NCBI GenBank assembly: GCA_002796325.1
Contig: PCXA01000007.1
Span: forward strand, 1 to 64,000
DNA: 64,000 nt
Direction: 5' to 3'
Source: Deltaproteobacteria bacterium CG11_big_fil_rev_8_21_14_0_20_47_16
GTDB lineage: Bacteria; UBA10199; GCA-002796325; 1-14-0-20-47-16
The position numbers and the translations under genes are program-made. Positions 37,608 to 54,873 of the stretch are shown one piece after another; position 1 is the stretch's first letter, and each line of letters starts with the position of its first letter. Under the pieces are notes generated by a model. The model worked only from the letters and a program-made list of their open reading frames with translations. It ran no database searches and was not told the origin of the DNA.

Positions 37608-38242
37608 ACGAAACCGATAACCATAAAGTTGTAACTGCATATCGTCGTATGGCATCCGTCTATGACTGGGTGTATCGCTTGTATCTTAAAAAGACTATGG
37701 CCGTTGCCATTGATCTACTGCATCCAGATGGTCACGAGCGTATTTTAGATGTGGCGTGCGGTACCGGTGAACTGGAGCGCCACGTAATGGATGTTTATCC
37801 TGCACAAGCGATTGTGGGTGTGGATTTAACAGATGCAATGTTGGTTCGAGCCCGCAGTAAGCTGGCTTCCTTTCCACATGTGGTTTTTCACCAAGGCACA
37901 AGCACCGCGCTACCGTTCCCAGATGCCAGTTTTGATTGTGTAATTACATGTAGCGCCTTTCACTACATGAGACAGCCTGAGCGTGTGATTGAAGAATGTG
38001 CTCGCGTGTTAACGCCTGGTGGACGCTTTATCATGATTGATTGGACGCGTGATGCCTGGCAGGGGCGCGTCTACGATTGGTTCCGTCGCAAAACAATTCC
38101 GTCTCATTATAAGGTGACAACGGAAAAGGAAGTGCGTGAACTGTGTCAAAAATCAGGGCTAGAAGTCAGTGCAGTAAAACGCTTTTCAGTTGTATGGTGG
38201 TGGCGCATGCTCGCCATCGAATCCCGCAAACAAAACATATAA
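37604..38242 (+). CDS. Class I SAM-dependent methyltransferase, UbiE/type-11
   Basis: 212 aa. Motif I is ILDVACGTGELERHVM, motif II-like GVDLTDAML, and the later CVITCSAFHYMRQPERVIEECARVLTPGGRFIMIDW segment is typical of type-11 methyltransferases. The substrate is unknown. It is translationally coupled to serB. Its last codons (AAC ATA TAA) lie inside the left terminal repeat of the structured element at 38235-38639, so that element supplies the stop codon. Confidence 0.85.
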   Translation: MNETDNHKVVTAYRRMASVYDWVYRLYLKKTMAVAIDLLHPDGHERILDVACGTGELERHVMDVYPAQAIVGVDLTDAMLVRARSKLASFPHVVFHQGTSTALPFPDASFDCVITCSAFHYMRQPERVIEECARVLTPGGRFIMIDWTRDAWQGRVYDWFRRKTIPSHYKVTTEKEVRELCQKSGLEVSAVKRFSVVWWWRMLAIESRKQNI

Positions 38243-38639
38243 ACGGTTATACGTCGTTCATTCAGTTCAATGCACGCCGCCATCGTTCGGCGACCAACCC
38301 CCAGCAGGCGTATGGCGCCTACCGCTGGCGCGCGCTGATACTTCACTCATGTGAGCTTGCCATTTCATTCGGAGACCTACGTTGTACTGAGTATCAAGGC
38401 GCGTTTATGAGCGTAGTCGTATGACGATGGCAAAAAATGCCATTGGCCACCGAGCTTGAAGGCCGACCAGCAGGAGGACATTCAAGCTTGTTTTGTGGCC
38501 AAGGCATTTTTGTCGAGTCATGACGGAGCGATTGCGCCACTCAGTACAACGTAGGGTCGGAGGATGAAATGGTGAGTGAGCAGGTCGGAAAGGTCATAAA
38601 ACTGTTGAGCGAAATGAAGTCGTATAACCGTTTATATGT
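38235..38639. mobile_element. Long nested-palindrome element, copy 1 (undescribed family)
   Basis: 405 bp, non-coding, filling the space between two convergent genes. The ends are a perfect 19-bp inverted repeat (ACATATAAACGGTTATACG at 38235-38253; complement at 38621-38639). Inside are two branches. Branch 1 is 38301-38328: CCAGC-AGGCG pairs with CGCCT/GCTGG. Branch 2 is 38360-38572, with 17 perfect pairs (38376-38392 with 38539-38555), CCATTTCAT (38360-38368 with 38564-38572), TTGGCCAC (38443-38450 with 38495-38502) and AGCTTGAA (38453-38460 with 38481-38488), closing on a 20-nt loop. A 41-nt core at 38499-38539 recurs in copy 2. No convincing ORF lies inside. Confidence 0.8.
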
Positions 38640-51891: not shown

Positions 51892-52818
51892 ATGATTTCC
51901 ATTTTCCTTACCATTCTTATCGGCGCCTTTTGGGGCGGCTCATTTGTCGCCATCCAGGCGGTTGTGGCGCAGTTTCCACCTTTGGTTGCGGTATTTTGGC
52001 GGATTGCGTTGGCTACGGTGGTGATGGCCCCCATCGTTTGTGTGAAGCGCAAACCCCTATGGCCTCAGCATAGCAAGCGACTTGCGATGGTGTCCGGCGC
52101 ATTGGCCATGGGGATTCCGTGGTGTCTGCTATTTTGGGCTGAGCAACATGTGAATGGTGCGCTTGGCGCGATTATGAACGCAACGGTCCCCGTGTTTGTT
52201 TTGCTGCTTTCGCCGCTCTATCATCCCAAGGCTGTGACGCGCCAACAGTGGTTAGGTGTGGGTATGGCGTTCATGGGAATTGTGGTGGTGTTTATGCCGG
52301 GCCTGCAAACTGGGGGAGCGTCTAATGCATGGGCGGTGGCTGCGCTTGTGGGTATGGCCATCGCATATGCAAATGGGCTTTTGTTTGCGCAGCGATTTTT
52401 GCGTGGCTTAGCACCCACCACGGCATCACTATGGCAAGGTGTTGGAGGTGCGAGCTTTGTGGCTGTGGTTGCACTAAGTTCCGGGTATTCATTGTGGAAT
52501 CCGGATTTGATTTTGGAACCGATTCCCCGATGGGGAATTTTGTATCTGGCGGTTTTTAGCACAGCAATTGCGAATATTATTCTGCTTTGGCTGCTTCAAC
52601 AAAAGGGGAGTGTGACCACATCGCTTGTGACATTTTTGATTCCACTTTTTTCAATTATAATCGAGTGGATGTATTTTGGCACAGAGCCGTCTCGTACAAC
52701 TTGGGCTGGAACGGTGATGGTACTCATGGGATTGTATATTGTGCAATTTTGGCGTCAGCGCAAAAAAGTGCGGATGGATGCGCCAATACTATCCAGTGCA
52801 TCAGGCGATGAAACGTAA
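51892..52818 (+). CDS. EamA/DMT-family transporter
   Basis: 308 aa with about ten transmembrane segments and two EamA repeats (IGAFWGGSFVAIQAVVAQFPPLVAVFWRIALATVVM and GMAIAYANGLLFAQRFLRG). It probably exports small metabolites or amino acids. The start is the ATG at 51892. It overlaps the convergent small gene by 64 bp. Confidence 0.9.
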   Translation: MISIFLTILIGAFWGGSFVAIQAVVAQFPPLVAVFWRIALATVVMAPIVCVKRKPLWPQHSKRLAMVSGALAMGIPWCLLFWAEQHVNGALGAIMNATVPVFVLLLSPLYHPKAVTRQQWLGVGMAFMGIVVVFMPGLQTGGASNAWAVAALVGMAIAYANGLLFAQRFLRGLAPTTASLWQGVGGASFVAVVALSSGYSLWNPDLILEPIPRWGILYLAVFSTAIANIILLWLLQQKGSVTTSLVTFLIPLFSIIIEWMYFGTEPSRTTWAGTVMVLMGLYIVQFWRQRKKVRMDAPILSSASGDET

Positions 52819-53162
52819 CAATCGGTGTGAGGTTCAACCGGGCTTAACGGAAATACCTGAGCAGCTGTGACGCGGCTGCGGCCATTCGGCAATTGTTCTG
52901 CAAATCGCACGAATTGATAGAGACTTCCCTTATAATTGAATTGTCCCGTTAACGCTGAAAGTGTCGATGTGACAGGGTATGTGGAAATGGCTTGGAGTGC
53001 GCCGTCTTCCATCAAGCGGCACCCTTTGCGGAGCGCTGCATGGGCGTCTGTTACCTCGGGATGCTGGGACCGCGCATCATCCAGGCTGGCATGGACAGTT
53101 TCTTCCCCATTCTTGCGGACCGCCCAGCCCTCGCGCGTGGCATTAATATAGATATTGGCCAT
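52755..53162 (-). CDS. Small hypothetical protein
   Basis: 135 aa, starts MANIYINATREGWAVRKNG. It is neutral, without signal peptide or membrane segment, and has no recognised domain. Its 3' 64 bp overlap the DMT gene. Its upstream spacer (53163-53239) separates it from the structured element copy 2. Coding status is likely but not certain. Confidence 0.55.
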   Translation of the reverse strand: MANIYINATREGWAVRKNGEETVHASLDDARSQHPEVTDAHAALRKGCRLMEDGALQAISTYPVTSTLSALTGQFNYKGSLYQFVRFAEQLPNGRSRVTAAQVFPLSPVEPHTDCYVSSPDALDSIGASIRTFLR

Positions 53163-53239
53163 GGCGCAGATAGCTAGTGCCGCGGGTAGTAGAAGTCAAG
53201 GCCGTCACGCATGATATGGTTCTAGCCCGTGTCACCAAT

Positions 53240-53693
53240 ACCATAATGTCGCTTATGCGAATTTTCCTCATTAGCCGCCTGACTTCGCCGATGTGGTCCC
53301 TTCGGGCGCCGGTGGATTTATTCAGGTCATATGCGAATTTGCCTCACCGCCTCGCTCGTCGGGCACGACGTCGGTTTTTCGTTACGGCGAAAAACCGCGT
53401 CTCACTCTCGCCGTGCGCTGCAAAGAACCATGGACGCGCACGGCTCCGAGAGTCCCTCCTCCGCGAGACGCCATCGTCAAATTCGCATAGGGATCCTTCA
53501 CTCATACGGCGGCCACAATGTGAAAAGTTGGAACGGTATGCTGCGCGAGGCAACAAGGTTCGGTAGGCGTTCCCCCAAGGCCTTTTTGTCAAGTCATGAC
53601 GGAGCTCCTGCGCCATACGCCTACCGAACCTTGTTGACGAGGGTAGCAGCATGTCGTTCCCTTAGAAGATCGCCGTATAAGCGACATTATGGT
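53240..53693. mobile_element. Long nested-palindrome element, copy 2 (undescribed family)
   Basis: 454 bp. The ends are a perfect 17-bp inverted repeat (ACCATAATGTCGCTTAT at 53240-53256; complement 53677-53693), with pairing continuing imperfectly inward. Branch 1 (53330-53489) is closed by 12 perfect pairs (TATGCGAATTTG/CAAATTCGCATA) and carries two hairpins: 53372-53397 (10 bp) and 53398-53470 (three stacked stems). Branch 2 (53530-53660) pairs GGAACG and ATGCTGC with their complements and then 20 perfect base pairs (53551-53570 with 53617-53636). Its loop holds the 41-nt core 53575-53615, 36/41 identical to copy 1. Open frames inside run through the repeats and look non-coding. Confidence 0.8.
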
Positions 53694-53718
53694 GTGGGGT
53701 GGTCAATGATGATACGGG

Positions 53719-54873
53719 CTAATACATCAAATAGCGTTCGCGGGTGGTAAGAAAGTCGGCGGGGGTGGGGCCGATCAGTTTGCGCAGGCCGGACCACGAC
53801 TCCTGGTGATCAATGGCCTTGCGAATGCGGCTGCTGCCCGTGAGTAAATCGATTGCAGGAATATCATCTACAAATTCATATCGCTCGGTGCGCCAGGCAA
53901 ATCCCTTGTGGGTGGCTAGTGCTGCAATAAGTGCGACACCGGTTTCATAAGGTCGCAATGTCGTCTGATTTGTAATTGTAAATTTAATGCCATGGCAAAT
54001 GCGTGCGGTGTGTTTTTGAAACGTCGGCGTGAATTCTGTGGGTGTGAATTCAATGCCAGGTAGCTTCAAGTCCGACATTTGCTTGGCCAATTTTTCACTG
54101 TCTATCCAAGGTGCACCACAAAGTTCGAATGGTGTGGCTGTGCCACGACCTTCCGAGACATTGGTGCCTTCGAGCAGACACATTCCCGGATATAATAGTG
54201 CAGCATTGAGAGAGCGCATGTTGGGTGAGGGGTTGATCCACGAAAGACCTGTTTGATTCCAGAGCATGTCGCGTTTCCACCCTGTCATGGGAATTACTTT
54301 CAAATCACAATCAATACCGCAGGTGTCATTGAAGTAGCGCGCCAATTCACCAATCGTCATCGCGTGCCGCACGGGCAGTGGATACAATCCAACGAATGAA
54401 TGAAAGCCCTTATCAATCAGGCCGCCTTCAATCGTAGTCCCATTAATGGGGTTGGGTCGATCACAAACGATAACAGGTTTGCCAGTGGCCGCTGCGGTTT
54501 GCATGCAGAAGGCCATGGTATAAATATAGGTGTAGTATCGGCTGCCAATGTCTTGCAAATCGATGATGAAGACATCCATATTGTTGCACATATCCGCTTG
54601 CGGTTTGAGCGATGCAAAAGAATCCCCGTACAAGCTGTAGATGGGGATATTGCGAGCCGCATCTTCGTTGTGACCAACGCCTTCCATGTCTTGGGCAACG
54701 GTTGTGATGCCATGTTCGGGTCCAAATAGTGTGGTGAGGTTGTAAGGCGCCAGAGCGTCAACTGTGGGTGTGCCATCGGAAAGAACGCTTGCTTGATGGA
54801 GCACTGCGCCGATGCGTTTGCCATCGAATAGTTCGGGAGTGAGTAGTAGGTTGTCGATTCCGAGCTGGGTCAT
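53719..54873 (-). CDS. DUF1343 protein, NamZ-like exo-beta-N-acetylmuramidase
   Basis: 384 aa. Family signatures are GAVLHQASVLSDGTPTVDAL, TTLFGPEHGITTVAQDMEGVGHNED, IFIIDLQDIGSRYYTYIYTM-type FIIDLQDIGSRYYTYIYT, DRPNPINGTTIEGGL and EGTNVSEGRGTATPFE. NamZ enzymes remove N-acetylmuramic acid from the end of peptidoglycan fragments, a cell-wall recycling role. There is no signal peptide, so it acts in the cytoplasm here. It overlaps ridA by ATGA. Confidence 0.88.
   Translation of the reverse strand: MTQLGIDNLLLTPELFDGKRIGAVLHQASVLSDGTPTVDALAPYNLTTLFGPEHGITTVAQDMEGVGHNEDAARNIPIYSLYGDSFASLKPQADMCNNMDVFIIDLQDIGSRYYTYIYTMAFCMQTAAATGKPVIVCDRPNPINGTTIEGGLIDKGFHSFVGLYPLPVRHAMTIGELARYFNDTCGIDCDLKVIPMTGWKRDMLWNQTGLSWINPSPNMRSLNAALLYPGMCLLEGTNVSEGRGTATPFELCGAPWIDSEKLAKQMSDLKLPGIEFTPTEFTPTFQKHTARICHGIKFTITNQTTLRPYETGVALIAALATHKGFAWRTERYEFVDDIPAIDLLTGSSRIRKAIDHQESWSGLRKLIGPTPADFLTTRERYLMY

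Follow-up and report, generated by a model that had tools for sequence, protein, structure and literature searches.

Pneumococcal BOX sequences, ERIC and other large palindromes are modular, hairpin-forming, non-coding and mosaic repeats located between genes, traits which are also those of the family reported here. REPINs consist of inverted REP doublets (PMC3116915), and the TnpA-REP proteins recognize a single strand of REPs when folded, by means of its loops and mismatches (PMC8266576). Folded single strands are also recognized via mismatches and loops at the end hairpins of IS200/IS605 and at integron attC sites, by transposases and integrases, respectively (PMC8266576).

In this study, we report a family of large palindromic elements found in the window, i.e., the whole stretch of 64,000 nucleotides of Deltaproteobacteria bacterium CG11_big_fil_rev_8_21_14_0_20_47_16 that was analyzed. 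Their conserved unit is a hairpin, hereafter H. The family was previously uncatalogued and is restricted to one little-known bacterial class, and searches of the open-access literature revealed no description of it.

Results

The element under study lies 3' of namZ (exo-beta-N-acetylmuramidase; ORF at 53719..54873, minus strand) and 5' of the gene at 52755-53162, also on the minus strand, in a gap which is not convergent. The neighbor that had been called NamZ-like is a real NamZ, matching both Pfam domains (NamZ_N, 256.6 bits; NamZ_C, 167.2 bits), and its TAG stop codon (53719-53721) is overlapped by the right end of the element. The initial annotation described a 454-bp element with a 17-bp perfect terminal inverted repeat, two further hairpins in branch 1 and a 20-bp perfect stem around the core of branch 2. 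All these structures are present and the palindrome stands; the extent does not, since the paired ends reach 53223 and 53721. The whole element, of type A (53223..53721, about 499 bp), has its outer ends paired (TAGCCCGTGTCACCAAT, 53223-53239, with ATGATGATACGGGCTA, 53706-53721), with a bulge of ~12 nt in the right one (GTGGGGTGGTCA), and its two outer-end variants were seen again at other copies. Inside them are the left (53240..53256) and right (53677..53693) arms of the 17-bp repeat. Branch 1 (53330..53489) is a module closed by a stem of 12 bp (53330-53341 with 53478-53489) and containing the two inner hairpins (53372-53397 and 53410-53444); no strand is assigned to it, to the arms or to the whole element. 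At least six other copies also carry this module, with the closing stem altered (TATGCGAATTTG, ACACCCAAATTTA, ACAACCAAATTTA) yet paired. Branch 2 (53530..53660, plus strand) corresponds to the outer stem of the H hairpin and pairs 53530-53544 with 53646-53660 and, as the 20-bp perfect stem, 53551-53570 with 53617-53636, around a core at 53577-53605. Only four perfect inverted repeats of at least 17 bp within 1.5 kb were found in the 64-kb window, all of them in this element or in the other copy of the window (copy 1), which excludes a chance origin.

A sister copy of the element, at C14:31855-32440, is 96% identical to it and 103 bp longer. These 103 bp were lost from the window element between CCAAGGC direct repeats, with the junction at about 53575-53581, and the missing pieces are the 5' side of H, the apical stem and the conserved tip, while a remnant of the 3' side of H persists at 53577..53614 (plus strand). 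Judging from this comparison with the sister, the window element is a deletion derivative, that is, a damaged copy of the family. Copy 1 (38235..38639, plus strand) has type B ends with a 19-bp perfect terminal repeat and an intact H hairpin located by the covariance models at 38398..38538 (plus strand), which scored 160.4 bits with the first model, R1, copy 1 being among the R1 source sequences, and 137.9 bits with the second model, R2. Another module was lost from copy 1 between TGGCGC repeats. At C8:73k, H was lost at a GCG repeat, and one module has its loop in the opposite orientation to that of copy 1. The loop inversion and the short-repeat deletions fit a hairpin-driven rearrangement (PMC8604942).

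The element had been taken for the second of two copies. In the 1.95-Mb assembly (20 contigs, 99.75% complete), the genome holds related sequence at 23 places, eight of them at contig ends, so the elements explain the assembly breaks at the repeats. Each copy is a mosaic assembled from a small set of modules, namely two kinds of ends, the branch-1 module and the core hairpin H. Type A ends (ACCATAATGTCGCTTATGCG) are extended outward by CTAGsCCGTGTCGCCAAT, and type B ends are ACATAAAATCGATTATACG. A protein-coding origin of the elements was rejected, as the shared ORFs merely translate the repeat itself.

H is a hairpin of ~140 nt composed of a closing GGCGC/GCGCC stem, an A-run/T-run stem and an apical stem. 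Its purine internal loops (GTATGAGGA / ACGAGTAGC) include tandem G.A, and its tip is GGGGCTGACAGmGGAAGACACC. The exact core pattern had no matches in the genome and viral collections nor in 145 relatives; in the latter the failure is explained by the divergence of the stems, and the covariance model then found copies. The covariance search proposed in the initial annotation was thus carried out and gave, in addition to the 23 places indicated above, with R1 (built from eight copies of the window's genome), full-length H in 12 of the 46 genomes of the class and, with R2, H in 16 of the 46, R2 finding none in 339 genomes outside the class; in the R2 search eight candidates were scored per genome and the copy numbers are minima. 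In total, 88 H copies were present in the fetched class loci. A gapped H pattern matched five loci in three MAGs of the genome_contigs collection and none in viral contigs. The matching public records are MAGs whose labels read Deltaproteobacteria or Bdellovibrio; where the titles name a source, it is groundwater or a mine. The plasmid and phage collections gave no match to the element, the window had no Rfam match at the gathering threshold, and a permissive Rfam scan of five element loci returned only chance-level matches at E<1.

The H copies were amplified separately in each genome. Many of them are singlets, some being deletion derivatives, while the eight loci with two H all have the same geometry, minus then plus (8/8). 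At one locus of another class genome (G029, L109:667-1245), there are two giant hairpins and the second H holds an extra long nested hairpin, which suggests that one hairpin was inserted into another.

Compensatory changes in the stems were sought, as the initial annotation had proposed, in the 88 copies. Double changes were present in 41 of the 44 pairs, amounting to 1009 cells vs. 283 in the shuffles, and the covariation score was 0.642 compared with 0.143 for shuffled alignments and at most about 0.10 for slid registers; the covariance-model alignment is biased towards its own structure, and the effect far exceeds the slid controls. It must be noted that G-U pairs made up only 1.1% of the pairs in the core stems and were as frequent as A-C (30 vs. 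33, p=0.80), unlike those of RNase P, in which, from Rfam alignments of three class genomes (the window's own, G011 and G017), G-U reached 8.4% with a G-U:A-C ratio of 24:4. This argues against ordinary RNA selection. Regarding the unpaired positions, the tip and the internal loops show conservation between families, unlike the adjoining stems, which are variable.

The two strands of the elements are not equivalent. The more stable fold was on the same strand in 83 of 86 copies with DNA parameters and in 84 of 86 with RNA parameters, and the median strand bias fell on the same side in all 16 genomes. In Watson-Crick-only alignments, isolated mismatches were G.A rather than C.T (23 vs. 5) and G.T rather than A.C (25 vs. 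10); the copies are related, hence the p-values of strand bias and mismatches are optimistic. An unfiltered mismatch count (29 G.T vs. 26 A.C) included spurious pairs and was replaced by these restricted counts. Given the differences in fold stability and mismatches, the folded single strand seems to matter. With respect to its nature, single-stranded DNA fits better than RNA, the outer arms being less clear than the core stems on RNA-like pairing: their isolated mismatches (19 G.T vs. 5 A.C) would be expected from RNA selection too and count against the single-stranded-DNA reading.

The outer arms evolve in a different manner. The median arm complementarity, out of 45, was 25 within a copy, 9 with other copies of the same genome and 6, i.e., background, across genomes. 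Among pairs from the same genome with cores at least 75% identical, 29 of 108 had both arms below 60% identity, the chance arm identity having a median of 0.40 and a 95th percentile of 0.55. Copies with cores 75-93% identical can therefore have outer arms unrelated between copies and complementary within each. In one genome (G009), the arms can still be aligned and show numerous compensated changes, and the copies share the ends beyond them, which indicates that the arms change in place. The shared ends also led to the rejection, for this genome, of an inverted duplication of the target as the source of copy-specific arms. Template switching between the arms of an inverted repeat homogenizes the arms and inverts the spacers (PMC8604942), and the signs of both processes were seen in the family. 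Therefore, compensatory change is not a clean proof of selection, and the wholesale divergence of arms that keep their self-complementarity is what arm-to-arm template switching would be expected to produce. In this regard, pairing kept through stem change, which had been taken as the sign of selection on structure, is not by itself proof of it, and that interpretation finds only partial support. What speaks for such selection is the conservation of the tip and purine loops together with the strand bias, while the equality of G-U and A-C and the alternative of template switching in the arms speak against it. The class-wide tip, the purine loops and the strand folding bias point to a function of the folded strand.

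Concerning their location, the elements are flush with stop codons, which they sometimes supply. The placement at gene 3' ends suggested for this locus holds for almost all copies of the genome, and it is only the convergent gap that the window copy lacks: of the 15 interior copies, 11 are between convergent genes, three between co-directional genes (including the window copy) and one between divergent genes. The share of convergent sites (11/15) exceeds the 20% of convergent gene pairs estimated from rough ORF calls in the window only (p=1.5e-5). Convergent genes of this genome otherwise nearly always overlap or touch, the distances seen in the window being -23 to +9 bp, and the element is often the sole spacer between them. 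All three co-directional copies carry H in antisense to both of their neighbors. In other genomes the placement is less strict and the orientation of H relative to co-directional neighbors is mixed, with about five sense and eight antisense by rough ORF calls. These orientations, antisense in all three cases here and mixed elsewhere, disfavor a cis-acting mRNA element.

A survey of the genome with PF01797 revealed a single relative of the REP-type tyrosine transposases, of 209 aa and with an HSHVH motif (C1:479120-479749, i.e., L146:721-1350, minus strand). It was above the Pfam cut-off for Y1_Tnp and reached 68.4 bits for REP_Tyr_transpos, below the NCBI cut-off of 80 bits. No H was present within about 1 kb of the Y1-transposase genes at seven loci in four genomes, the genome's own included, and such transposases are about equally common in class genomes without H. 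Co-occurrence with RAYT was thus discarded as evidence because it is not discriminating, and a role of this protein in H mobility would be a guess. No shared protein or autonomous version was found in the flanks of H, no target-site duplication was visible at the complete copies when read by eye, and comparison of two pairs of genomes (G020 vs. G015 and G019 vs. G007) gave no usable empty site.

Other repeats were observed in the same class. Beside an H element of G019 (L159:1736-1876), there is a different palindromic repeat of ~111-141 bp, with more than 20 copies in this genome and relatives in G007, which contains ATTGGTT...AACCAAT, as does H. In addition, G020 and G042 contain dozens of short REP-like repeats (at L164:1161-1334 in G020), several of which form close inverted pairs, and the class apparently also has a population of REPINs of ordinary size.

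Discussion

The explanation that we favor, to which we give as much credence as doubt, is that the family is a giant REPIN-like, class-restricted and non-autonomous DNA element which would spread as a folded single strand via a transposase acting in trans. From the features described above we infer that single-stranded DNA is the active form and that the elements are moved by a transposase. The conserved unit H, often as two inverted H inside longer, fast-changing and self-complementary arms, would be recognized as a folded single strand, and on one strand only, by this enzyme, the REP-type tyrosine (HUH/Y1) transposase of the genome being the leading candidate mobilizer. Template switching during replication would copy one arm onto the other, so that the arms largely stay complementary, and insertions would persist almost exclusively at the 3' ends of genes, chiefly where two genes converge; the purging of insertions elsewhere would be the simplest reason for this placement. 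Against this REPIN-like reading it must be considered that no REP approaches H in size and that H is devoid of a GTAG foot, that neither a target-site duplication nor an empty site was found, that the transposase is not adjacent to H, that no autonomous version was detected and that Y1 transposases are about equally common without H. Tentatively, and with less confidence, H, as a large folded hairpin whose loops are conserved throughout the class, could be the recognition structure of a new kind of single-stranded-DNA mobile element, used as an inverted doublet, moved by a dedicated enzyme and bearing hypervariable arms rewritten in matched pairs.

Other explanations must also be weighed. If H were a structured RNA selected for RNA pairing, for instance a 3'-UTR element or a bidirectional termination or insulation element between convergent genes, the class-wide covariation, the conserved tip and the purine internal loops with tandem G.A would be expected, as would the gene 3' end placement in the window's genome, the more stable folding of one strand and the excess of isolated G.T over A.C in the outer arms. 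The rarity of G-U in the core stems and its equality with A-C, unlike RNase P, make such an RNA rather unlikely, as do the antisense orientation of H in all co-directional copies of the genome and its mixed orientation elsewhere, the lack of a U-tract beside H and of any Rfam match. It is likewise improbable that these are old palindromes without any selected structure, in which template-switch repair alone keeps the arms alike and which, scattered by recombination, are tolerated where convergent genes end. The unpaired tip and internal loops are conserved class-wide though flanked by variable stems, G.A mismatches are strand-specific, the doublets have a fixed geometry and the copies were amplified separately per genome, all of which speaks against such an origin. 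What it does explain is that the arms are near chance identity between copies and complementary within them, that G-U equals A-C, and that loops are inverted and short-repeat deletions occur, all in line with the homogenization of arms and inversion of spacers by template switching (PMC8604942).

Finally, the elements could be MITEs of a classical DDE transposon, whose terminal repeats would be the recognized ends and whose inner hairpins would be passengers. Long terminal inverted repeats are present in each genome, and the elements are multicopy, non-coding and intergenic; nevertheless, the lack of any visible target-site duplication when the complete copies were inspected by eye, the ends that differ between types A and B and between genomes, H being the conserved part, and the lack of an autonomous partner in the flanks render this highly unlikely.

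This is a new class-wide repeat family with a large and strongly covarying hairpin, absent from the family libraries tested. It also provides a clean natural case to separate selection on folding from arm-to-arm template switching as causes of compensatory change, given that the core, the loops and the arms visibly differ in the way they evolve.

Among the described systems, REPINs or BIMEs with their RAYT share with the H family the multicopy extragenic palindromes, the inverted doublets and compensatory arm changes, the preferential location at the 3' ends of genes and at convergent ones, a RAYT relative in the genome, and conserved unpaired bases, which in the known systems are recognized on one strand (PMC3116915, PMC8266576, PMC3733652). 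They differ in that the H core has ~140 nt and the elements 300-600 bp, compared with 20-50 nt of REPs, and in that the H family is without a conserved GTAG/CGTC foot at the hairpin base and without a RAYT beside the repeats, has nested branches and is limited to one class. By its working, the H family is closest to REPINs, two REP-defining features (size with the GTAG foot, and RAYT adjacency) being absent. With respect to BOX and ERIC as described, the H elements are much larger and have several nested hairpins, hypervariable self-complementary arms and an apical hairpin conserved class-wide. Unlike the end hairpins of IS200/IS605, they have no insertion-sequence ORF in cis, and unlike integron attC sites, the copies lie isolated among ordinary genes, without cassette arrays. 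If the single-strand reading is true, REPIN-type mobility would extend from palindromes of 20-50 nt to elements about ten times larger.
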